A DNA stretch of 25,794 nucleotides from Geobacillus icigianus (lineage in GTDB: Bacteria; Bacillota; Bacilli; Bacillales; Anoxybacillaceae). Positions within the stretch are counted from its first letter, which is position 1. The number at the start of each line of letters is the position of its first letter. The position numbers and the translations under genes are program-made. The stretch lies in the NCBI RefSeq assembly GCF_000750005.1, contig NZ_JPYA01000053.1, forward strand, positions 1-25,794. Direction: 5' to 3'. The notes beneath the pieces were generated by a model. The model ran no database searches, was not told the DNA's origin, and worked only from the letters and a program-made list of their open reading frames with translations. This document shows positions 2,690 to 11,317 of the stretch, in pieces.

Positions 2690-3610
2690 TTAATTTTGTT
2701 TGGATATTTTTTGTCGGTCTTGTTGTAACAGCAAATCAGCGAGACAATCTTCCAACGTTGGAAACGAAAAGCGAAATCCGGCTTGCAGCAGTTTTTCCGG
2801 AATGACGCGTTGCCCTTCTGTCACGAGCATGCTCATTTCGCCAAGGAGAAGGCGGAGTGCTGCCTCGGGGACCGGAAGCCAATGCGGGCGGCGCAGCAAA
2901 CGGGAGACGGTGCGCCCAAACTCATTCATCGAGACCGGATGGGGCGCCGTGAAGTTGATCGGGCCGGATAGCGTTTCGTGTTTGATGAGATAAGAAACGG
3001 CGCGGACGACGTCGTCAAGGTGAATCCATGACAGCCATTGCCGTCCGCTGCCGATCGGGCCGCCGACGAACAGCCGATACGGTTTGACCATCATCGGCAA
3101 GGCGCCGCCATGTCGGGCCAGCACGACGCCCAAACGGGCATAGACCGTGCGGATGCCGAGCTGTTCGATCGGACGGGCCGCCGCTTCCCACGCTTGAACC
3201 GTTTTGGCGAGAAAATCTTGTCCATACTCGTTCGTTTGTTCCGTAAATGTTCCGGTGTCCGATGTCCCGTAAATGCCGATGGCGCTCGCGTTGATGAACA
3301 CGTTCGGATGGCGGGGGAGGGAAGCGATATATCGGGCCATCGCGTCGGTTGCCTGCAAGCGGCTGGCGACAATCCGCTCTTTTTGTTTGGCGGTCCAACG
3401 TTTCCGGTTGAGCGGTTCACCGGCTAAATTGACGGCCACATCGATCGTGTCCGGCCTTCTTTTGTCATCGTCCAAGGAAAGATAATGAAGGCGGCCTTCC
3501 GAAGGACGGGGGGAGCGGGTAAAAATATAAACGTCATGCCCTTGTGCGGAAAAATGGAGGGCAAGCGCCCGGCCGATCAGTCCGGTTCCGCCGTTGATGG
3601 CGATGCGCAT
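2690..3610 (-). CDS. yfhF: YfhF, TIGR01777-type NAD(P)-dependent epimerase
   Basis: A 306-residue extended short-chain dehydrogenase of the TIGR01777 (SulA/YfcH-like) family. The Rossmann motif GGTGLIG is at residues 7-13. The family-typical [40 protein letters not shown], and a C-terminal DUF1731 domain follow ([53 protein letters not shown]). The substrate of the family is not established. ATG at 3610 has AAAGGAGAG about 7 bases upstream; the in-frame TTG at 3631 lacks a site. It is divergent from recX, as in B. subtilis, with about 100 bases between the two starts. Confidence 0.92.
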
Positions 3611-3714: not shown

Positions 3715-4515
3715 ATGGGGACGATTATTGAAATCGCGCCCACGAAGGGAAACGGGGAACGGTTTTGGCTTGTCATTGACTGCGCCGAAGAGCCGCCGCT
3801 CAAGCTGACGGTCGACCAAGATGTGTTGCTCCAATTCCGGCTGAAAAAAGGGATGGCGGTCGATGAGGCGCTTTTGCGCGAGATCATTGCTGCCGATGGC
3901 GTAAAAAAGGCGTATCAGCAAGCGTTGTACTTTTTGGCGCGCCGGATGCGCTCCGAGCAGGAAATCATTCGCCATTTGCGCAAAAAGGGCGTTGCCGATG
4001 CGGTGGCGGAGCAGGTGCTCAACAAGCTTCGCGCCGAGCGGTATGTGGATGACGAGGCGTTTGCGCGAGCTTATGTATGCACGCAGAAAAAGGCGGCGAA
4101 AGGGCCGCTGCTCATTCGCGCCGAATTGGAGCGGCTTGGTGTACCGACTGATTTGATCGAGCAAAGTTTGGCCGAGTATTCGTGGGAGGAACAACTGCAT
4201 GGCGCCCGCGCTCTTTTCGAAAAGGCCAAACGACAACGCCGGGCTGAATCGGCCCGCGCGTTTTCCGAGCGGGTTCGACAGCAGCTTGGGCGCAAAGGAT
4301 TTCCTCATGAAGTGATTGCGGCGGTGCTGGAGGAAGGGAGTGGGCAAACGGACGAGCAGGAGTGGGAGGCGCTTGTCGTTCAAGCAGAAAAAGCGCACCG
4401 CCGCTATGCGCAGCACCCGCGCCCGCTGTACGAGCAAAAAATGCGCCAGGCCCTGTATCGCAAAGGGTTTTCCCTCCCTCTTATCGACGAATGGCTGCGA
4501 TCTCGCGATGGCTGA
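3715..4515 (+). CDS. recX: RecX, regulator of RecA
   Basis: A 266-residue RecX, a small helical protein that binds RecA filaments and modulates recombination and SOS induction. Like other Bacillus RecX it is longer than the roughly 150-residue enterobacterial form and has three or more repeats of the three-helix module: ARRMRSEQEIIRHLRKKGV (about 82-100), then a KLRAERYVDDEAFARAYV helix, and a C-terminal MRQALYRKGFSLPLIDEWL. ATG at 3715 aligns with the start remembered for B. subtilis RecX (M-x-x-I-x-x-I) and lies 11 bases after AGGAG. ATG at 3706 is in frame but only 2 bases from that site. A GC-rich hairpin follows the gene (CCGGCGCTC 4528-4536 with GAGCGCCGG 4551-4559), without a U-tract. 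Confidence 0.93.
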   Translation: MGTIIEIAPTKGNGERFWLVIDCAEEPPLKLTVDQDVLLQFRLKKGMAVDEALLREIIAADGVKKAYQQALYFLARRMRSEQEIIRHLRKKGVADAVAEQVLNKLRAERYVDDEAFARAYVCTQKKAAKGPLLIRAELERLGVPTDLIEQSLAEYSWEEQLHGARALFEKAKRQRRAESARAFSERVRQQLGRKGFPHEVIAAVLEEGSGQTDEQEWEALVVQAEKAHRRYAQHPRPLYEQKMRQALYRKGFSLPLIDEWLRSRDG

Positions 4516-4946: not shown

Positions 4947-5288
4947 ATGATAAACGAAGGAGCCAAGCGGTACAGCGAAATGACGAAAGAAGAATTGCAA
5001 CAAGAAATCGCCGTGCTGGCCGAAAAGGCGCGCAAGGCAGAGCAAATGGGCATGGTGAATGAATATGCCGTCTATGAGCGGAAAATCGCCATGGCAAGAG
5101 CGTATATGCTCAATCCGGCTGATTTTCGCCCGGGGGAGATTTACGAAATCGAAGGGGCGCCCGGCGAGTATTTCAAAGTGCGCTATTTAAAAGGAGTGTT
5201 TGCCTGGGGATGGCGATGGAAAGGAACCGGTGAAGAGGAGGCGCTCCCGATTTCGCTTTTGCGCCGACCGGTGAGAGAGGAGAGCTAG
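4947..5288 (+). CDS. yfhH: YfhH family protein (DUF1811)
   Basis: A 113-residue YfhH homologue (DUF1811, PF08838), conserved beside recX in Bacillaceae; no biochemical role is established. The N-terminal half is a helical, coiled-coil-like segment (KRYSEMTKEELQQEIAVLAEKARKAEQMGMVNEYAVYERKIAMARAYML). It is followed by a small beta domain (FRPGEIYEIEGAPGEYFKVRYLKGVFAWGWRW and a terminal PISLLRRP). ATG at 4947 has AAAGGGGG 8 bases upstream. The long gap after recX suggests its own promoter. Confidence 0.9.
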   Translation: MINEGAKRYSEMTKEELQQEIAVLAEKARKAEQMGMVNEYAVYERKIAMARAYMLNPADFRPGEIYEIEGAPGEYFKVRYLKGVFAWGWRWKGTGEEEALPISLLRRPVREES

Positions 5289-6212: not shown

Positions 6213-6704
6213 TTACTCCTTGCTTCCAAGCTGTTGGCCGATGGCTTTCAGCGCGGACAGGCCAAACCGGATTGCCCGGTTCGTGTCTGGATCGTTGAGC
6301 GCTCGCAACAAGTCAAGCAGCCCAATTTTTTTCGTCTCCGTCTCTGTCTGTTCGTACGCGTCCATCACGCCAGCGGCAAGTTGTCCGAGCAGTTTGGCTG
6401 TCTTTTCCGGGTCGAGAGAAGCGGCCAAACCAGCGATGGAGAACAGATGGTTGATCATCGTTGTCACCACCGGTTTTTGATTGAGCTGGCCAACGACGAT
6501 TTTGGCTACGTCTTCCCGCGCTTTCAATAAGGCGTTGGCTGCTTCGAGCAAGCCGCTTTCGTGAAGCTGCTCGATCAACGTCAAGAGCTCGCGGACCGCC
6601 TCTTCGCTGTCGCCGACCGCCGCTTTCAGTTTGGCCAAAGCTTCGGCCCGTTTTTCTTCCTCGGTCAGTTGACGCTTCTGAATGGTGGTAATCGGTTTAG
6701 CCAC
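6213..6704 (-). CDS. DUF1641 protein, formate dehydrogenase partner (YrhD-like)
   Basis: A 163-residue DUF1641 protein (PF07849), resembling B. subtilis YrhD, which is encoded next to the formate dehydrogenase homologue YrhE. It is all-helical and soluble: a charged N-terminus (KRQLTEEEKRAEALAKLKAA), then EEAVRELLTLIEQLHESGLLEAANALL and the conserved GLAASLDPEKTAKLLGQLAAGVMDA, ending in NRAIRFGLSALKAIGQQLG. It starts with GTG at 6704 inside the end of the dehydrogenase gene (8-base overlap, stop TAA at 6697-6699), with GGGGGTG upstream. Translational coupling and roughly equal production are expected. A structural or electron-transfer subunit role is inferred only from this constant neighbourhood. 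Confidence 0.88.
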   Translation of the reverse strand: MAKPITTIQKRQLTEEEKRAEALAKLKAAVGDSEEAVRELLTLIEQLHESGLLEAANALLKAREDVAKIVVGQLNQKPVVTTMINHLFSIAGLAASLDPEKTAKLLGQLAAGVMDAYEQTETETKKIGLLDLLRALNDPDTNRAIRFGLSALKAIGQQLGSKE

Positions 6705-9660
6705 CGATTTTCACCCCCTTGGTTTCCTCGGTGAGCGGCACGTAATCGCGGCGCCGCCATTTCCGTTCAACTTCCACCCCGTTTTGCGGATGACGCTGTT
6801 TAAAGCGCGGGTTTGTGCGCGGCAGCGGCGTCCTGCCGGATCGTTCAATCACTTCCATGCGCACGCGCGCTTGTTTGTAGGCCGGCGTGTTCGTGCGATG
6901 GTCGGTCTGCGGGCCGGTCAACATATTAATGGCGCTCTCATTGGCGGTGGAGTGCATCGGCAAGAACAGTTCATTGCCTCTGACCCGATCGGTGACGAGC
7001 ACGCGCACGTTGACGCGGCCGTACGGCGAGATGAGCCGGACGAGCGCCCCGTCCTCAATGCCGCGCTCGTTGGCGAGTTCCGGCGACACTTCGACGAACA
7101 CTTCCGGGAATTTGTGCTCGATGCCTTTGGATTTATACGTTAAATTCCCTTCATGGAAGTGTTCCAGCAGCCGGCCGTTGTTGACGAGCAAATCGTATTC
7201 TTCCGGGTATGGCACCGGTTCGACCCAATCGGCCAGCGCAAAGCGGGCTTTGCCGTCCGGGAAGTTGAACCGCTCTTTGTACAAAAGCGGGGTATCCGCG
7301 CCGTCATAGCTACCCCAGCATAAGCTGTTCCAGCCCTCGAGTCGGTCGTAATGCGCCTGCGAATAGAGCGGGGCGAGGCTGGCGATTTCGTCCATGATTT
7401 CTTTCGGACCGGCGTAATTCCAGTCGGCGCCAAGCCGTTTGGCAATTTCTTGAATGATCCACCAGTCTGGCTTGGAGTCGCCAAGCGGCTCGAGCGCTTG
7501 GTAAAACCGTTGGATGCGGCGCTCGGTGTTCGTGAATGTTCCTTCTTTTTCCAAACTCGGCGCGGCCGGCAAGATGACATCAGCAAATTGCGCCGTTTTG
7601 GACAGGAAAATGTCTTGAACGACGACAAAGTCGAGCTTCGCCAACGTCTCTTGCACGTGGCTGGCGTTGCAGTCAACAAGCGCCATATCTTCGCCGACGA
7701 TATACATCGCTTTCAGCTCGCCGCGCTCGGCCGCTTCAAGCATTTGGATGTTGTCAAGCCCCGGTTTCGCGTCGATGCGGACGCCGTACGCTTTTTCAAA
7801 CTTCGCCCGCGCCTCATCATCGGTGACATGTTGGTAGCTAGGCAGCCAGCTAGGAAGCGAGCCCATGTCGCAGGCGCCTTGGACGTTGTTATGGCCGCGC
7901 AATGGGAACGCGCCCGCCCCCGGACGGCCGTAGTTGCCGGTTGTAAGCAGCAAGTTGGAAATCGCCGCCGATGTGTCGCTGCCGCCCGTGTTTTGCGTCA
8001 CGCCCATGCCCCAGAGGACGCACGTGCCGTCCGCTTCGTGAATCATTTCGGCGATGCGGATGAGATCGGCTTTGGCGACGCCGGTGACTTGTTCGGCATA
8101 GTCGAGCGTATAGTTTTCAAGCAGTTGCCGAAATTCAGCAAAGAAATGGACGCGCTCGCGAATGAACGCTTCATCGTGCCAGCCTTGGTCGATGATGTAT
8201 TTGGTCACGGCCATCAGCCATACTTGGTCAGTGCCTTGTTTCGGACGGATGAACAAATCGGCCCGCTCAGCCATTTCGTTGCGGCGCAAGTCAGCGACGA
8301 TCAGTTTTTGGCCGAACAGCTTATGCGCCCGTTTGACGCGGGTCGCAATCACCGGGTGCCCCTCGGCAGGGTTGGCGCCGATGATGATGACCAAGCCGGC
8401 GGAAGCGATGTCATGAATCGTGCCGGAGTCGCCGCCCATCCCGACCGTGCGGAACAGGCCGTCCGTCGCCGGCGACTGGCAATAGCGCGAACAGTTGTCG
8501 ACGTTGTTCGTTTCAAATACTTGCCGCGCCAACTTTTGCATTAAATAGTTTTCCTCGTTGGAAATTTTCGAGGAGGAAATAAAGCCAATGGCATTGCCGC
8601 CGTATTGTTGCTTAATGGCGCCAAGCTTTTCAGCCACTAGATCGAGCGCTTCTTCCCACGTCGACTCGACGAACACGTCGCCTTTGCGGATGAGCGGCTT
8701 CGTCAGGCGCTCTTCGCTGTTGACAAAATCCCAGCCGAATTTTCCTTTGACGCATGTGGAAATCGCGTTGACCGGCGCTTCGGAAACCGGCTGGATTTTT
8801 AAAATCTTGCGCCCTTTCGTCCACACTTCAAACGAACAGCCGACGCCGCAGAACGTGCAAACCGTTTTCGTCTTTTTGATCCGCTGTTCGCGCATGGCGG
8901 CCTCGATTTCAGAAATGGCGAAAATGCTCGTATAGTTTGGCTCGACTTCTTTGACAAAATCGATCATCGGGTTGAGGACGTCTTTGTCCAAGCCGGTGAG
9001 AAAGCCCGCTTCGCCAAGCATCGATTTTTCCATTAAGGCGTTGCACGGGCAGACGGTGACGCAATGCCCGCAGCTGACGCATGACGATTCGTTGATCGGC
9101 ACGCCGCCATCCCAAACGACGCGCGGCCGTTCCGCTTCCCAGTCAATCGAGAGCGTTTCGTTCACTTGCAAGTTTTGGCAAGCCTCCACACACTGCCCGC
9201 AGGCGATGCATTGGTTCGGGTCATAGCGGTAGAACGGATGCGACATGTCCACCTCGGACGGGTCGACTTTCGGCCGGTACGGATATGTTTGATGTTCGAT
9301 TTGCATCATTTCCGCTGTGTTGTGCAGCTTGCAGTTGCCGTTGTTGTTGTCGCACACCGTACAGTAGAGGAGATGGTTCTCCAACAGGCGGTCCATCGCT
9401 TCTTTTTGCGCCGCCTTTGCCCGCGGCGAGCCGAGCTCGACGACCATGCCGTCCGCAACCGGCGTCGAACAGGCGCGAAGAAGCCTGCCGTTGATCTCGG
9501 CAATGCATGTGTCGCACGTTTGAATGGCGCCAAGCTCCGGCGTGTAACAAACTTGCGGATGCCCAATGCCGTGTTCATTGGCGACTTCCAAAACGGTCAT
9601 CCCTTGTTTGGCGCGATACGTGCGTCCGTTGATGGTCAATGTCACCATGGATGGTTCCAT
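6697..9660 (-). CDS. formate dehydrogenase alpha subunit (FdhA/YrhE-like, NAD-type)
   Basis: A 987-residue molybdopterin oxidoreductase of the FdhF/YrhE type, predicted to oxidise formate to CO2. Domains in order: a [2Fe-2S] ferredoxin domain with Cys38, 49, 52 and 64; a NuoG-like His-Cys cluster region (His96, Cys100, Cys103, Cys110); and two [4Fe-4S] clusters (Cys151/154/157/161 and 194/197/200/204). The [4Fe-4S] of the catalytic domain follows (Cys268/271/275/303), then the bis-MGD domains to about 960. The position of selenocysteine in E. coli FdhF is occupied by Cys393 (VDNCSRYCQSP), so this is the cysteine form. No Tat signal, so cytoplasmic. ATG at 9660 has GGGGGAG about 5 bases upstream; the TTG at 9681 has none. 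The metal may be Mo or W. The leader carries an intrinsic terminator. Confidence 0.93.
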   Translation of the reverse strand: MEPSMVTLTINGRTYRAKQGMTVLEVANEHGIGHPQVCYTPELGAIQTCDTCIAEINGRLLRACSTPVADGMVVELGSPRAKAAQKEAMDRLLENHLLYCTVCDNNNGNCKLHNTAEMMQIEHQTYPYRPKVDPSEVDMSHPFYRYDPNQCIACGQCVEACQNLQVNETLSIDWEAERPRVVWDGGVPINESSCVSCGHCVTVCPCNALMEKSMLGEAGFLTGLDKDVLNPMIDFVKEVEPNYTSIFAISEIEAAMREQRIKKTKTVCTFCGVGCSFEVWTKGRKILKIQPVSEAPVNAISTCVKGKFGWDFVNSEERLTKPLIRKGDVFVESTWEEALDLVAEKLGAIKQQYGGNAIGFISSSKISNEENYLMQKLARQVFETNNVDNCSRYCQSPATDGLFRTVGMGGDSGTIHDIASAGLVIIIGANPAEGHPVIATRVKRAHKLFGQKLIVADLRRNEMAERADLFIRPKQGTDQVWLMAVTKYIIDQGWHDEAFIRERVHFFAEFRQLLENYTLDYAEQVTGVAKADLIRIAEMIHEADGTCVLWGMGVTQNTGGSDTSAAISNLLLTTGNYGRPGAGAFPLRGHNNVQGACDMGSLPSWLPSYQHVTDDEARAKFEKAYGVRIDAKPGLDNIQMLEAAERGELKAMYIVGEDMALVDCNASHVQETLAKLDFVVVQDIFLSKTAQFADVILPAAPSLEKEGTFTNTERRIQRFYQALEPLGDSKPDWWIIQEIAKRLGADWNYAGPKEIMDEIASLAPLYSQAHYDRLEGWNSLCWGSYDGADTPLLYKERFNFPDGKARFALADWVEPVPYPEEYDLLVNNGRLLEHFHEGNLTYKSKGIEHKFPEVFVEVSPELANERGIEDGALVRLISPYGRVNVRVLVTDRVRGNELFLPMHSTANESAINMLTGPQTDHRTNTPAYKQARVRMEVIERSGRTPLPRTNPRFKQRHPQNGVEVERKWRRRDYVPLTEETKGVKIGG

Positions 9661-9679
9661 TCTCGCTCCCCCTTTTTCC

Positions 9680-9723
9680 AAAATAAAACTCCACCAACGA
9701 TGCGTGCTTCATCGTGGTGGAGT
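9680..9723 (-). terminator. attenuator-like terminator in the fdhA leader
   Basis: On the minus strand ACTCCACCACGATG pairs with CATCGTTGGTGGAGT (one bulge, 7-base loop) and is followed at once by TTTATTTT. The ribosome binding site of the formate dehydrogenase gene starts about 8 bases later. A strong intrinsic terminator between promoter and gene implies regulated read-through. CGATGG upstream (9757-9763 on the plus strand as CCATCG) could pair with the CATCG arm as an antiterminator. Confidence 0.7.
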
Positions 9724-9779
9724 AGTTCTTTAGCATGGCGATACTAAACAACCAATCCATCGTTTTGGCGACTTCGTAG

Positions 9780-9816
9780 AAAAATCACAAGGTCATGACC
9801 TTGCCTTATGATTTTT
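9780..9816. promoter_or_regulatory. palindromic hairpin between divergent formate genes
   Basis: CAAGGTCATGACCTTG (9788-9803) is a perfect 16-bp palindrome, enclosed by AAAAATCA (9780-9787) and TGATTTTT (9809-9816). It lies in the transcribed leader of the dehydrogenase gene if the promoter at 9844-9872 is right. It could be an operator or, as RNA, a first hairpin with a U-tract. Confidence 0.5.
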
Positions 9817-9843
9817 CCACTATGGATACATTTGCTATAGTTT

Positions 9844-9872
9844 ATTATAGTACGGCAAAACGAAGAACACAA
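9844..9872 (-). promoter_or_regulatory. candidate sigma-A promoter of the fdhA operon
   Basis: On the minus strand TTGTGT (9867-9872) and a perfect TATAAT (9844-9849) are 17 bases apart. The predicted transcript would have a leader of about 175-180 bases. The -35 box is only half matched. Confidence 0.5.
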
Positions 9873-9920
9873 TGGATGGGCCGGAACTTTTTCTGGTGGC
9901 TTTCGGAAAGGGGAAGAAAA

Positions 9921-10268
9921 ATGTCTAAAAAAGAAGCCGCTTTCAACGACATTGTGCGCAAAGTACGCAAACAGCTGTTTGGCAAAGGGCCGGAACGGAT
10001 TAAAACGTATTTTGTCGACAACTTGGCGATTACGATTTTGCACGGCAATTTAACGCCGACGGAAAAATTTATCGCCCGCACCCCGGAAGGCCGGGAGATG
10101 GTGCACGCGGCGAGAACGAAAATGATTCAAGACGTGTACGCTCAACATGTGCCGGACGGCATGGAAGAGCTCATCGGTTCGAAGCTTCTTTATTTGTTCA
10201 GCGACATTAAAGTGGAAGAAGATATGGCCGTGTCCGTATTCGTGTTTGAAAAACCGATTGAATTGTGA
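9921..10268 (+). CDS. DUF2294 (MpsC-like) protein
   Basis: A 115-residue soluble protein of the DUF2294 family (PF10057), lately also called Na+-translocating membrane potential-generating system MpsC-like. It shows the family's EAAFNDIVRKVRKQLFGKGPERIKTYFVDNLAITILHGNLTPTEKFIA and the C-terminal GSKLLYLFSDIKVEEDMAVSVFVFE. ATG at 9921 follows GGGGAAG; frames opening at 9795 are longer but start in the hairpin region and lack a site. It is divergent from the formate dehydrogenase operon and upstream of fdhD. That position suggests a role in formate or one-carbon metabolism, but no function is proven. Confidence 0.85.
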   Translation: MSKKEAAFNDIVRKVRKQLFGKGPERIKTYFVDNLAITILHGNLTPTEKFIARTPEGREMVHAARTKMIQDVYAQHVPDGMEELIGSKLLYLFSDIKVEEDMAVSVFVFEKPIEL

Positions 10269-10288
10269 CAAATTTGTGAACAAAACGG

Positions 10289-10317
10289 TTGTCTTTCCCC
10301 GCTGTTCATGGTATGCT
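10289..10317 (+). promoter_or_regulatory. sigma-A promoter of fdhD
   Basis: TTGTCT (10289-10294), 17 bases, TATGCT (10312-10317). It starts 20 bases after the DUF2294 stop and would give a leader of about 190 bases before fdhD. Just upstream TTGTGACAAATTTGTGA holds two TTGTGA direct repeats resembling Rex/Fnr half-sites, but not the palindromic arrangement. Confidence 0.6.
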
Positions 10318-10440
10318 TATGAGTGTAAACAAGGTCAAACTAAAAGAAGCTTGGCCGGCTAGCCGCGGCTGTTCGGTTGGTTGGCAAGTTTCGAAAACGG
10401 ATGTGCGTTGGTTTCGCTGCAGAAGCGCTGGGCGCAAACT

Positions 10441-10503
10441 ACCGCCGCTTTTCGCTGACAGGGGCAAACAGTGCCTTTGTCCGGAAGGTGGCGGTTTTAT
10501 TTT
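10441..10503 (+). terminator. attenuator-like terminator in the fdhD leader
   Basis: ACCGCC (10441-10446) pairs with GGCGGT (10490-10495). Inside, GACAGGGGCA (10457-10466) pairs over 10 positions, two of them G-U, with TGCCTTTGTC (10472-10481) around AACAG. TTTTATTTT follows, then the ribosome binding site of fdhD. The flanks AACTAC-C-CC on the 5' arm and GGTGG-G-TTTTATTTTGG on the 3' side recur in the leader of the formate dehydrogenase gene. Upstream leader bases 10324-10440 contain further small hairpins (e.g. GCGCTGGGCGC at 10425-10435). Confidence 0.65.
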
Positions 10504-10516
10504 GGGGGAAAGGGGG

Positions 10517-11317
10517 ATGGCAAGGGTGAGCGGATTTGCGGCGAAGCGGCGGCTGATTGTGAAATACCGGGACGGCCGCTTGGTTGAGGAAGAGGACGAG
10601 ATCGCGCTCGAGTTTCCGTTGACCATAATGGTCAACGGCGAGGAGTTTGCGACGATCGTTTGCACGCCCGCGCATCTCGATGAACTGGTGAGCGGATTTT
10701 TAGCCGCGGAAGGAGTCATTCGGACGTATAGCGACATCAAAGCGATGACGATCGATGGCGAGCGGGGGTTTGCGTACGTCGAGCTCGCCGCAGGGGGACT
10801 GCCGGCCAAACAGTTTTATGCGAAGCGGTTCATCGGCTCGTGCTGCGGAAAAAGCCGCCAGTTTTATTTTTACAACGATATGAAAACGGCGAAAACGATT
10901 GTCGGCGGCATTACCGTGAAAGCGGATGACTGCATTCGCCTCATGGAAGCGCTACACGATCAGTCGACGGACTTTGCGGCGACCGGGGGGCTGCACAATG
11001 CCGCGCTCGCTACACCGAATGGGATAGTCGTCGCCCGTTCCGACATCGGGCGTCATAATGCGCTTGATAAGTTGTACGGCTATTGCCTGCGCCATCAAGT
11101 GGCGATGAAAGACAAGTTGATTGTATTCAGCGGCCGCGTCTCGTCGGAAGTGCTTTTAAAAGCGGCGAAAATGGGCGTGAGCGTCTTGCTCTCGAAGTCG
11201 GCGCCGACGACGCTCGCTTTGGATCTCGCCGACGAGCTCGGCATCACTGTGGTCGGCTTTTTGCGCGGACAAGCGTTTAACGTGTATACGCATGAGAATC
11301 GGATTATCAGTGGATGA
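10517..11317 (+). CDS. fdhD: formate dehydrogenase accessory sulfurtransferase FdhD
   Basis: A 266-residue FdhD, which carries sulfur from a cysteine desulfurase to the molybdenum/tungsten bis-MGD cofactor before insertion into formate dehydrogenase. Family features: [30 protein letters not shown] near the N-terminus, the catalytic cysteine motif in GSCCGKSRQ (about residue 110), [27 protein letters not shown], and [31 protein letters not shown] at 10517 is preceded by two G-rich tracts; GTG at 10526 is an alternative start with a spacing of 9 from the nearer one. It has its own promoter and a structured leader. It serves the dehydrogenase encoded about 0.9 kb upstream on the other strand. 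Confidence 0.94.

Follow-up and report, generated by a model that had tools for sequence, protein, structure and literature searches.

A putative family of transcription-attenuator leaders upstream of formate and molybdenum-cofactor genes in Bacilli, and its association with DUF2294 proteins

The window, that is, the whole stretch of 25,794 nucleotides of Geobacillus icigianus analyzed here, carries two oppositely oriented leaders with a small gene between them. On the minus strand lies fdhA (6697-9660), encoding the alpha subunit of a formate dehydrogenase (Pfam Molybdopterin and other matches), and on the plus strand fdhD (10517-11317), encoding the formate dehydrogenase accessory protein (Pfam FdhD-NarQ). 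Both are presumed to be controlled by the leaders that precede them. The gene between the leaders (9921-10268, plus strand) encodes a protein of 115 amino acids belonging to DUF2294 (PF10057, "MpsC"), a candidate RNA-binding regulator on the basis of its Pfam match, its co-occurrence with the leaders and its structural model.

The fdhA leader is preceded by a predicted promoter (TTGTGT-17-TATAAT, 9844-9872, minus strand; start near 9837) and the fdhD leader by another (TTGTCT-17-TATGCT, 10289-10317, plus strand; TG before the -10 box, 8 of 12 matches), both read by eye from the sequence rather than from mapped starts; the second was missed by a consensus promoter scan. TATAAT recurs in relatives: 19 of 33 related fdhA leaders have an exact copy no more than 45 nt before the element, against 2.1% of control windows. 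Behind its promoter, the fdhA leader is predicted to fold into a hairpin P1 (9776-9820; GTGGAAAAAT..ATTTTTCTAC), a second hairpin P2 (9719-9758) with a GGA/UCC closing stem, a U.C mismatch and a UUGGU/ACUA core, which is a candidate antiterminator, and an intrinsic terminator with its U-run (9681-9722), whose 5' foot is the 3' strand of P2. The fdhD leader repeats this order with P1 at 10346-10392 (folding and covariation alignment), P2 at 10405-10445, with a GCG/CGC closing stem and the same mismatch and core (pairing and alignment), and a terminator with U-run at 10441-10503 (folding).

As an earlier note on this DNA had claimed, each leader ends in an intrinsic terminator directly 5' of the ribosome binding site. 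The hairpin of fdhA (9722-9689, minus strand) reaches -19.8 kcal/mol (z -4.06 against shuffled sequences) and that of fdhD (10441-10495, plus strand) -37.8 kcal/mol (z -6.28), and the entire leaders are also more stable than shuffled ones (z -6.2 for fdhA, -3.9 for fdhD). Two strings which that note had found in both leaders fall on this structure, AACTAC..CC..CC being the 3' strand of P2 with the terminator foot, and GGTGG.G-TTTTATTTTGG the 3' arm of the terminator with the U-run. A third, CAAGGTCA, is indeed present in both leaders, but was rejected as a shared motif and is ascribed to chance: its fdhA copy lies in the loop of P1, its fdhD copy upstream of P1, and neither is conserved in relatives. 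The leaders have seven 8-mers in common, where mono-shuffles gave 0.52 and reached this number in 1 of 1000 cases. Five of the seven are overlapping words from the U-run string, and the other two are AAAGGGGG of the ribosome binding site and CAAGGTCA. The raw identity of the two leaders alone is weak evidence of kinship, and since the shared words come mostly from the U-run, kinship had to be tested on relatives.

Within the family, fdhA occurs at 83% identity or more in 20 of 41 genomes, with the core motif upstream of it in all 20. By eye, these 20 genomes also have the fdhD form at their fdhD loci, and the six further fdhD loci lack it. Independent covariance models were built from 16 fdhA leaders (model R1, alignment A1) and from 13 fdhD leaders (R3, alignment A5), and in relatives each matched leaders of the other gene. 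R1 recognized the fdhD leader in 7/7 sister-genus loci (L126-L132; E 1.5e-4 to 0.027) and in 0/6 same-genus loci searched, the window (L113) included. R3 recognized three of the nine fdhA leaders of the family (L008, L014 and L018; E about 7e-7), and left unmatched the fdhA leader of the window, the 10 fdhA leaders searched from outside the family and the six loci searched where the element precedes genes other than fdhA. The homology of the two window leaders thus rests on their relatives, because R1 matched no same-genus fdhD leader and R3 misses the fdhA leader of the window. A fuzzy motif scan across all loci was rejected for its spurious matches in coding sequence.

Both alignments covary. 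In A1, the full structure has 42 double-change cells (shuffled alignments: 13.7), of which P1 accounts for 34, and 10 of the 12 modelled P1 pairs change on both sides somewhere, while P2 is almost invariant; A5 has 30 such cells against 13.2. P2 of both window leaders consists of the closing stem, the U.C mismatch and then U-A, G.U, G-C and U-A pairs. The formate-transporter leaders L037 and L040 have UGC closed by GCA or GCG, U.G in place of the mismatch, and then U-A, G.U and A-U, so that the G.U pair of P2 is retained across targets despite changes in the adjoining pairs. In P1 of the fdhA leaders a G.U pair in a UGG/CUA context is conserved in 15 of 16 sequences, the remaining one having G-C. 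A conserved G.U in both hairpins hints at two sites for one binder, as judged from the alignments. These features bear on the reading that the hairpins are unregulated terminators that insulate genes from upstream transcription, and that they owe their likeness to an inherited spacer without function. Many genes have an intrinsic terminator upstream, and the divergent arrangement would suit such a role, but promoter-like -10 boxes stand upstream of the terminators, P1 covaries, P2 hardly changes over many genera, and unlinked genes are also preceded by the element; we therefore hold this explanation to be very improbable. The suggestion of one regulatory RNA class acting on termination is borne out by the cross-matching models, the covariation and the promoters upstream of the element. 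Both leaders are members of a single family of probable RNA switches upstream of formate and molybdenum genes in Bacillus-type bacteria, and we are nearly certain that an attenuator-type RNA class for these genes is real. In the texts available to a literature search, incomplete for subscription journals, neither this class nor any RNA-related function of DUF2294 was found described. In a further group of loci (L066, L070, L074, L075 and L078, also L068 and L081) a diverged leader (e.g., GGATTACTAGTAGG..TTATTAGCCCGCC) with weak R1 scores stands upstream of fdhA, and DUF2294 lies downstream of fdhA.

Of the 397 genomes in the order, 75 gave an R1 match at E ≤ 0.05, with a best E of 5e-10 or less in 70 of them (hereafter strong-element genomes), and class-wide 43/299 genomes did so at E ≤ 0.001. 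Forty further elements were fetched for the analysis of neighbours. Apart from fdhA, the element is seen before DUF2294 in L169-L174; in L181 DUF2294 is followed by moaB and mobA, in L177 the element precedes mobB and modB, and in L176 an Mrp/ApbC-like gene and mobB. An FdhF/YdeP-type enzyme follows in L183 and likewise in L239, L245 and L246. In L175 (1745-2347) and L180 (1741-2349) the formate-class leader precedes a membrane protein that we take to be UPF0126-like, with DUF2294 divergent. Transporters of the formate/nitrite family follow such leaders in L247 and L248 (NCBIfam) and presumably, as named by eye, in L033, L034, L037, L040, L056, L060 and L241, the leader of L241 being itself read by eye only; L035 and L055 have what we take to be MoeB/ThiF-like genes. 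R1 matches before the formate-transporter and moeB genes are mostly weak, with E 7e-7 in L034, 8e-4 in L040 and 0.006 to 0.08 in L060, L035, L055, L056, L037 and L033. The neighbours look like a regulon for formate and the molybdenum cofactor, and the proposed link to molybdenum is upheld by targets such as mobA, mobB, moaB, modB, fdhA, fdhD and the formate transporter. Weak matches in G138, G214, G358 and G409 (C1:1717236) were dismissed as chance-like. Another (L182, genome G331) precedes an adenine-deaminase-like gene and is unproven; a weak match in G247 (L183) is adjoined by DUF2294 and an FdhA-like gene.

No Rfam 15 family matched at gathering threshold across the window, and none at E ≤ 10 in 9600-10600, T-box included; in 12 further loci only c-di-AMP riboswitches were matched (L226 and L227). 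The Moco/Tuco motif, which the earlier note had considered the natural guess, left the window leaders unmatched when the Rfam covariance models were compared. Moco/Tuco RNAs do resemble the present class in standing upstream of genes for molybdenum-cofactor biosynthesis, molybdate transport and molybdenum enzymes (PMC2408646), but our class differs from them in the lack of a covariance-model match, in its small P2 core and in its link to DUF2294; the taxa named in the abstract of that study exclude Bacilli (PMC2408646). No BglG-family regulator was found among the Pfam matches of 10 window proteins. The RAT of the BglG/LicT/SacY systems is a short mismatched hairpin at the foot of a terminator, bound by a protein that is often encoded nearby. 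P2 is also a short mismatched hairpin in this position, but its core differs, and the sole Pfam match of the window's DUF2294 protein is MpsC. In the attenuators of ANTAR proteins (AmiR/NasR/EutV) there are two hairpins, the second at the terminator, with hexaloops that have a conserved A1 and G4. Our leaders share the two hairpins and the position of the second, but what they conserve is the base of the stem, while the loops of P1 and P2 vary in length and sequence (by eye, in the fdhA and fdhD alignments). In the main text of a survey of premature terminators, a term search found no mention of formate or molybdenum (PMC2965389).

The leaders have the layout of a transcription attenuator: promoter-like boxes upstream, an intrinsic terminator before the gene and an alternative pairing that uses a strand of the terminator. 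The 5' foot of the terminator is the closing strand of P2 in the fdhA, fdhD and formate-transporter leaders. The closing triplets of P2, with the terminator arm in brackets, are GGA-UCC-(TGGTGGA), GCG-CGC-(GGTGGCG) and TGC-GCA/GCG-(GTGCTGC/GTGCCGC), according to the target; since one strand serves both hairpins, the 5' strand of P2, the common strand and the 3' arm of the terminator change together between targets. This joint change rests on few programmed cases, the rest having been placed by covariance model and by eye, since a strict P2-plus-terminator finder recovered the proper P2 in 5/6 fdhA, 1/4 fdhD, 2/6 focA, 2/2 DUF2294, 1/1 UPF0126-like, 0/1 mobB, 0/1 Mrp and 0/1 moeB leaders, with several false pairs. 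In the B. subtilis group (L037) P2 abuts the terminator without common bases. Folding of the window leaders shows P2 formed before the 3' arm of the terminator is transcribed; in the full leader, P2 can be held closed only at a cost of 4.4 kcal/mol in fdhA and 8.4 kcal/mol in fdhD, and the terminator then opens at its base. The natural reading is termination by default, with a factor that stabilizes P2 acting as antiterminator. Against it, the isolated, GC-rich P2 of fdhD is no more stable than shuffled sequences (z +0.25). On this reading, RNA polymerase would start 5' of P1 and make first P1 and then P2. With no partner bound, the terminator would reclaim the 3' strand of P2, because it is the more stable structure, and transcription would stop before fdhA or fdhD. 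The DUF2294 protein made from the intervening gene would, given molybdenum cofactor, formate or a related signal, bind the conserved P2, perhaps P1 too, and keep P2 closed, which would allow readthrough into the gene.

DUF2294 proteins as a whole occur in 287 of the 397 genomes of the order, and the formate-type subfamily (profile A3, E ≤ 1e-40) in 75. This subfamily is present in 69/70 strong-element genomes and in only 6/327 others (Fisher 6e-69, computed without correction for ancestry; kinship makes such p-values overstate independence). In the six exceptions (G084, G170, G203, G254, G291 and G341) an element turned up at the DUF2294/fdh locus once the loci were searched one by one, with E 6.7e-9 to 1e-4 in small search spaces. 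These searches covered the six protein-bearing genomes without a match and not protein-free ones, so that an element in all 75 is a one-sided statement. In G270 it is the reverse: the element is present and formate-type DUF2294 is missing.

The same association is seen around single elements. DUF2294 lies in the fetched stretch of 32 of the 40 further elements; the eight others are L207 (G270), L178 and six matches with E near 1e-3 or higher. In 7 of the 40 loci DUF2294 directly follows the element, and in four that have neither fdhA nor fdhD it is the divergent neighbour. Among 80 named fdhA loci, DUF2294 was present in the fetched stretch of 42/52 with an R1 match (E ≤ 1) and of 3/28 without one; at E ≤ 0.01 the counts are 38/47 and 7/33. 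As to its position, DUF2294 diverges from fdhA on the upstream side in 29 loci, immediately precedes it with the same orientation in five and lies downstream of it in eight. Ten of the 52 element-bearing loci have no DUF2294 in the fetched stretch; that of L055 is probably located beyond the stretch on the same contig (cf. L244). L178 carries a weaker element (5001-5160, minus strand; E 2.5e-6) and no DUF2294 reading frame was seen in it; downstream there is, as in L169, a hutH-like gene (by eye). This element may perhaps be a decaying copy left after loss of the protein.

The AlphaFold model of the window's DUF2294 protein is compact and confident (pLDDT 96.8, pTM 0.88). A sequence search found no relative of solved structure and a structural search no clear match to a solved fold; a HutP-like fold is not among the fold matches listed, which excludes nothing. 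Formate-type members keep F8, N9, R13, K14, R16, K17, G21, K22, G23, P24, E25 and R65, and R13, K14, R16, K17 and K22 are invariant. The basic N-terminal helix is suggestive, though no more than that, of contact with nucleic acid. YrhF, the DUF2294 protein of B. subtilis, is called unknown in the pertinent passages of one study, in which it appears as a target of RoxS (PMC8216469). In the same species acid and benzoate raise fdhD, yjgCD and yrhEFG jointly (PMC2788229), and forCE2 (yrhED) is reported to be controlled differently from typical formate dehydrogenases (PMC8808070). A 139-nt RNA peak between yrhF and yrhE, listed as "New sRNA or yrhE leader region", was co-precipitated 170-fold with Hfq; its authors thought non-specific retention of leaders likely, and the passages concerned assign it no class, regulon or regulator (PMC3574147). 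By its position, this yrhE leader is probably the same element, which occupies that place in the close relatives L037, L040 and L041, and the short transcript fits attenuation. The Hfq result is one ground for supposing that a different protein binds P2 and that DUF2294 is an accessory of formate or bicarbonate metabolism, merely linked to the leaders. Another is the S. aureus mpsC deletion, for which no growth phenotype and no function were found, the passages on it containing no RNA role (PMC6689103). We think this quite improbable, as among the four proteins labelled at the 40 further elements (FdhA, FdhD, DUF2294 and DUF1641) only DUF2294 also adjoins elements that have neither fdhA nor fdhD.

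Paralogs of DUF2294 adjoin bicarbonate transporters, either a DabA or DabB-like subunit (L219 and L228) or SbtA (L220, L229 and L232). The gap between the two genes contains a hairpin of the form GGGAGAU-stem-AUAAACC, whose closing CC is the start of a terminator (e.g., L219:4206-4337, L225:3926-4035 and L229:3698-3811, minus strand). This second class is the layout of the formate class with a different sequence. Nine of its leaders (alignment A4) have 13 double-change cells against 4.2 in shuffled alignments, no Rfam family matched this class in the 12 loci searched, and the corresponding model, R2, matched 115/397 genomes at E ≤ 0.01, including that of the window (C96:7705-7837). At least 70 of the 120 R2 places with E < 1e-5, or at least 61/111 when the nine seeds are excluded, begin 11-256 nt past a same-strand DUF2294 stop codon, where relatives are expected by descent since the model was seeded from DUF2294-adjoining loci. 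At least 19 more of the 120 precede a DUF2294 gene of like orientation by 4.2-5.5 kb, and at most 31 are without a nearby DUF2294 among the DUF2294 places listed. Eight R2 loci were inspected: the leaders of L273, L276 and L279 precede what we take to be DabB-like genes, that of L266 an SbtA-like gene (by eye), and those of L264, L265, L268 and L275 lead into neither. In L264 and L265 (G104 and G165) the gene behind the leader encodes an uncharacterized protein of 286 amino acids, away from any listed DUF2294. Upstream of the bicarbonate-type DUF2294 gene in L225, L229, L234 and L235, and partly in L220, there is a further leader (CCGAGAGAU ... AUAAAUCGGUAUAU and a terminator), its closing strand again shared with the terminator (by eye). 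S. aureus MpsC, the name behind PF10057, resembles these paralogs in that a bicarbonate transporter adjoins it and a weak terminator lies between mpsAB and mpsC (PMC6689103). Yet another DUF2294 subfamily is flanked by c-di-AMP riboswitches (L226:4006-4144 and 3334-3476, minus strand, and 4264-4407, plus strand; L227:4296-4438, plus strand), and in L226 kdpA adjoins.

The main rival to regulation by DUF2294 is a riboswitch, in which the leader itself would bind molybdate, formate, the molybdenum cofactor or a relative of these, DUF2294 being just one more gene of the regulon. The formate and molybdenum genes behind a structured RNA of two hairpins fit such a sensor, and DUF2294 itself follows the element in L169-L174 and L181; a target can be inherited together with its switch without operating it. 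The Moco aptamer is elaborate, however, whereas the conserved core of our leaders is one short mismatched hairpin. The near one-to-one co-occurrence with one DUF2294 subfamily across genomes, and the second attenuator class, different in sequence, which DUF2294 paralogs adjoin beside bicarbonate transporters, also speak against a riboswitch, which we consider unlikely despite the similar regulon of the known Moco RNA (PMC2408646). What the computations show is the RNA class with its structure and neighbours, the strand that P2 and the terminator have in common, and the co-occurrence with the formate-type subfamily. That DUF2294 operates the leader as an RNA-binding antiterminator is the best-supported mechanism, and we think it somewhat probable. 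The RNA-binding protein that had been named as an alternative to a regulatory RNA class is now the better alternative, and DUF2294, which the earlier note did not name, is the candidate that would bind. More tentatively, and with slightly less than even confidence, we propose that DUF2294 proteins in general are RNA-binding attenuation regulators, each subfamily with its own hairpin set against a terminator (at formate and molybdenum genes, or at the bicarbonate-transport genes dabAB and sbtA), perhaps sensing one-carbon oxyanions such as formate and bicarbonate, and with staphylococcal MpsC as a member.

A search of the literature for DUF2294 by name returned, in the texts available, only a paper on a fungal secretome. 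Our results offer a testable regulator and RNA target for the formate dehydrogenase and molybdenum-cofactor genes of Bacilli, and a possible role for a family present in 287 of the 397 genomes of the order. If the proposal is true, DUF2294 would represent a further family of proteins that operate transcription attenuators, in this case through two distinct classes of RNA, and would provide a handle on the sensing of formate or bicarbonate in Bacilli.
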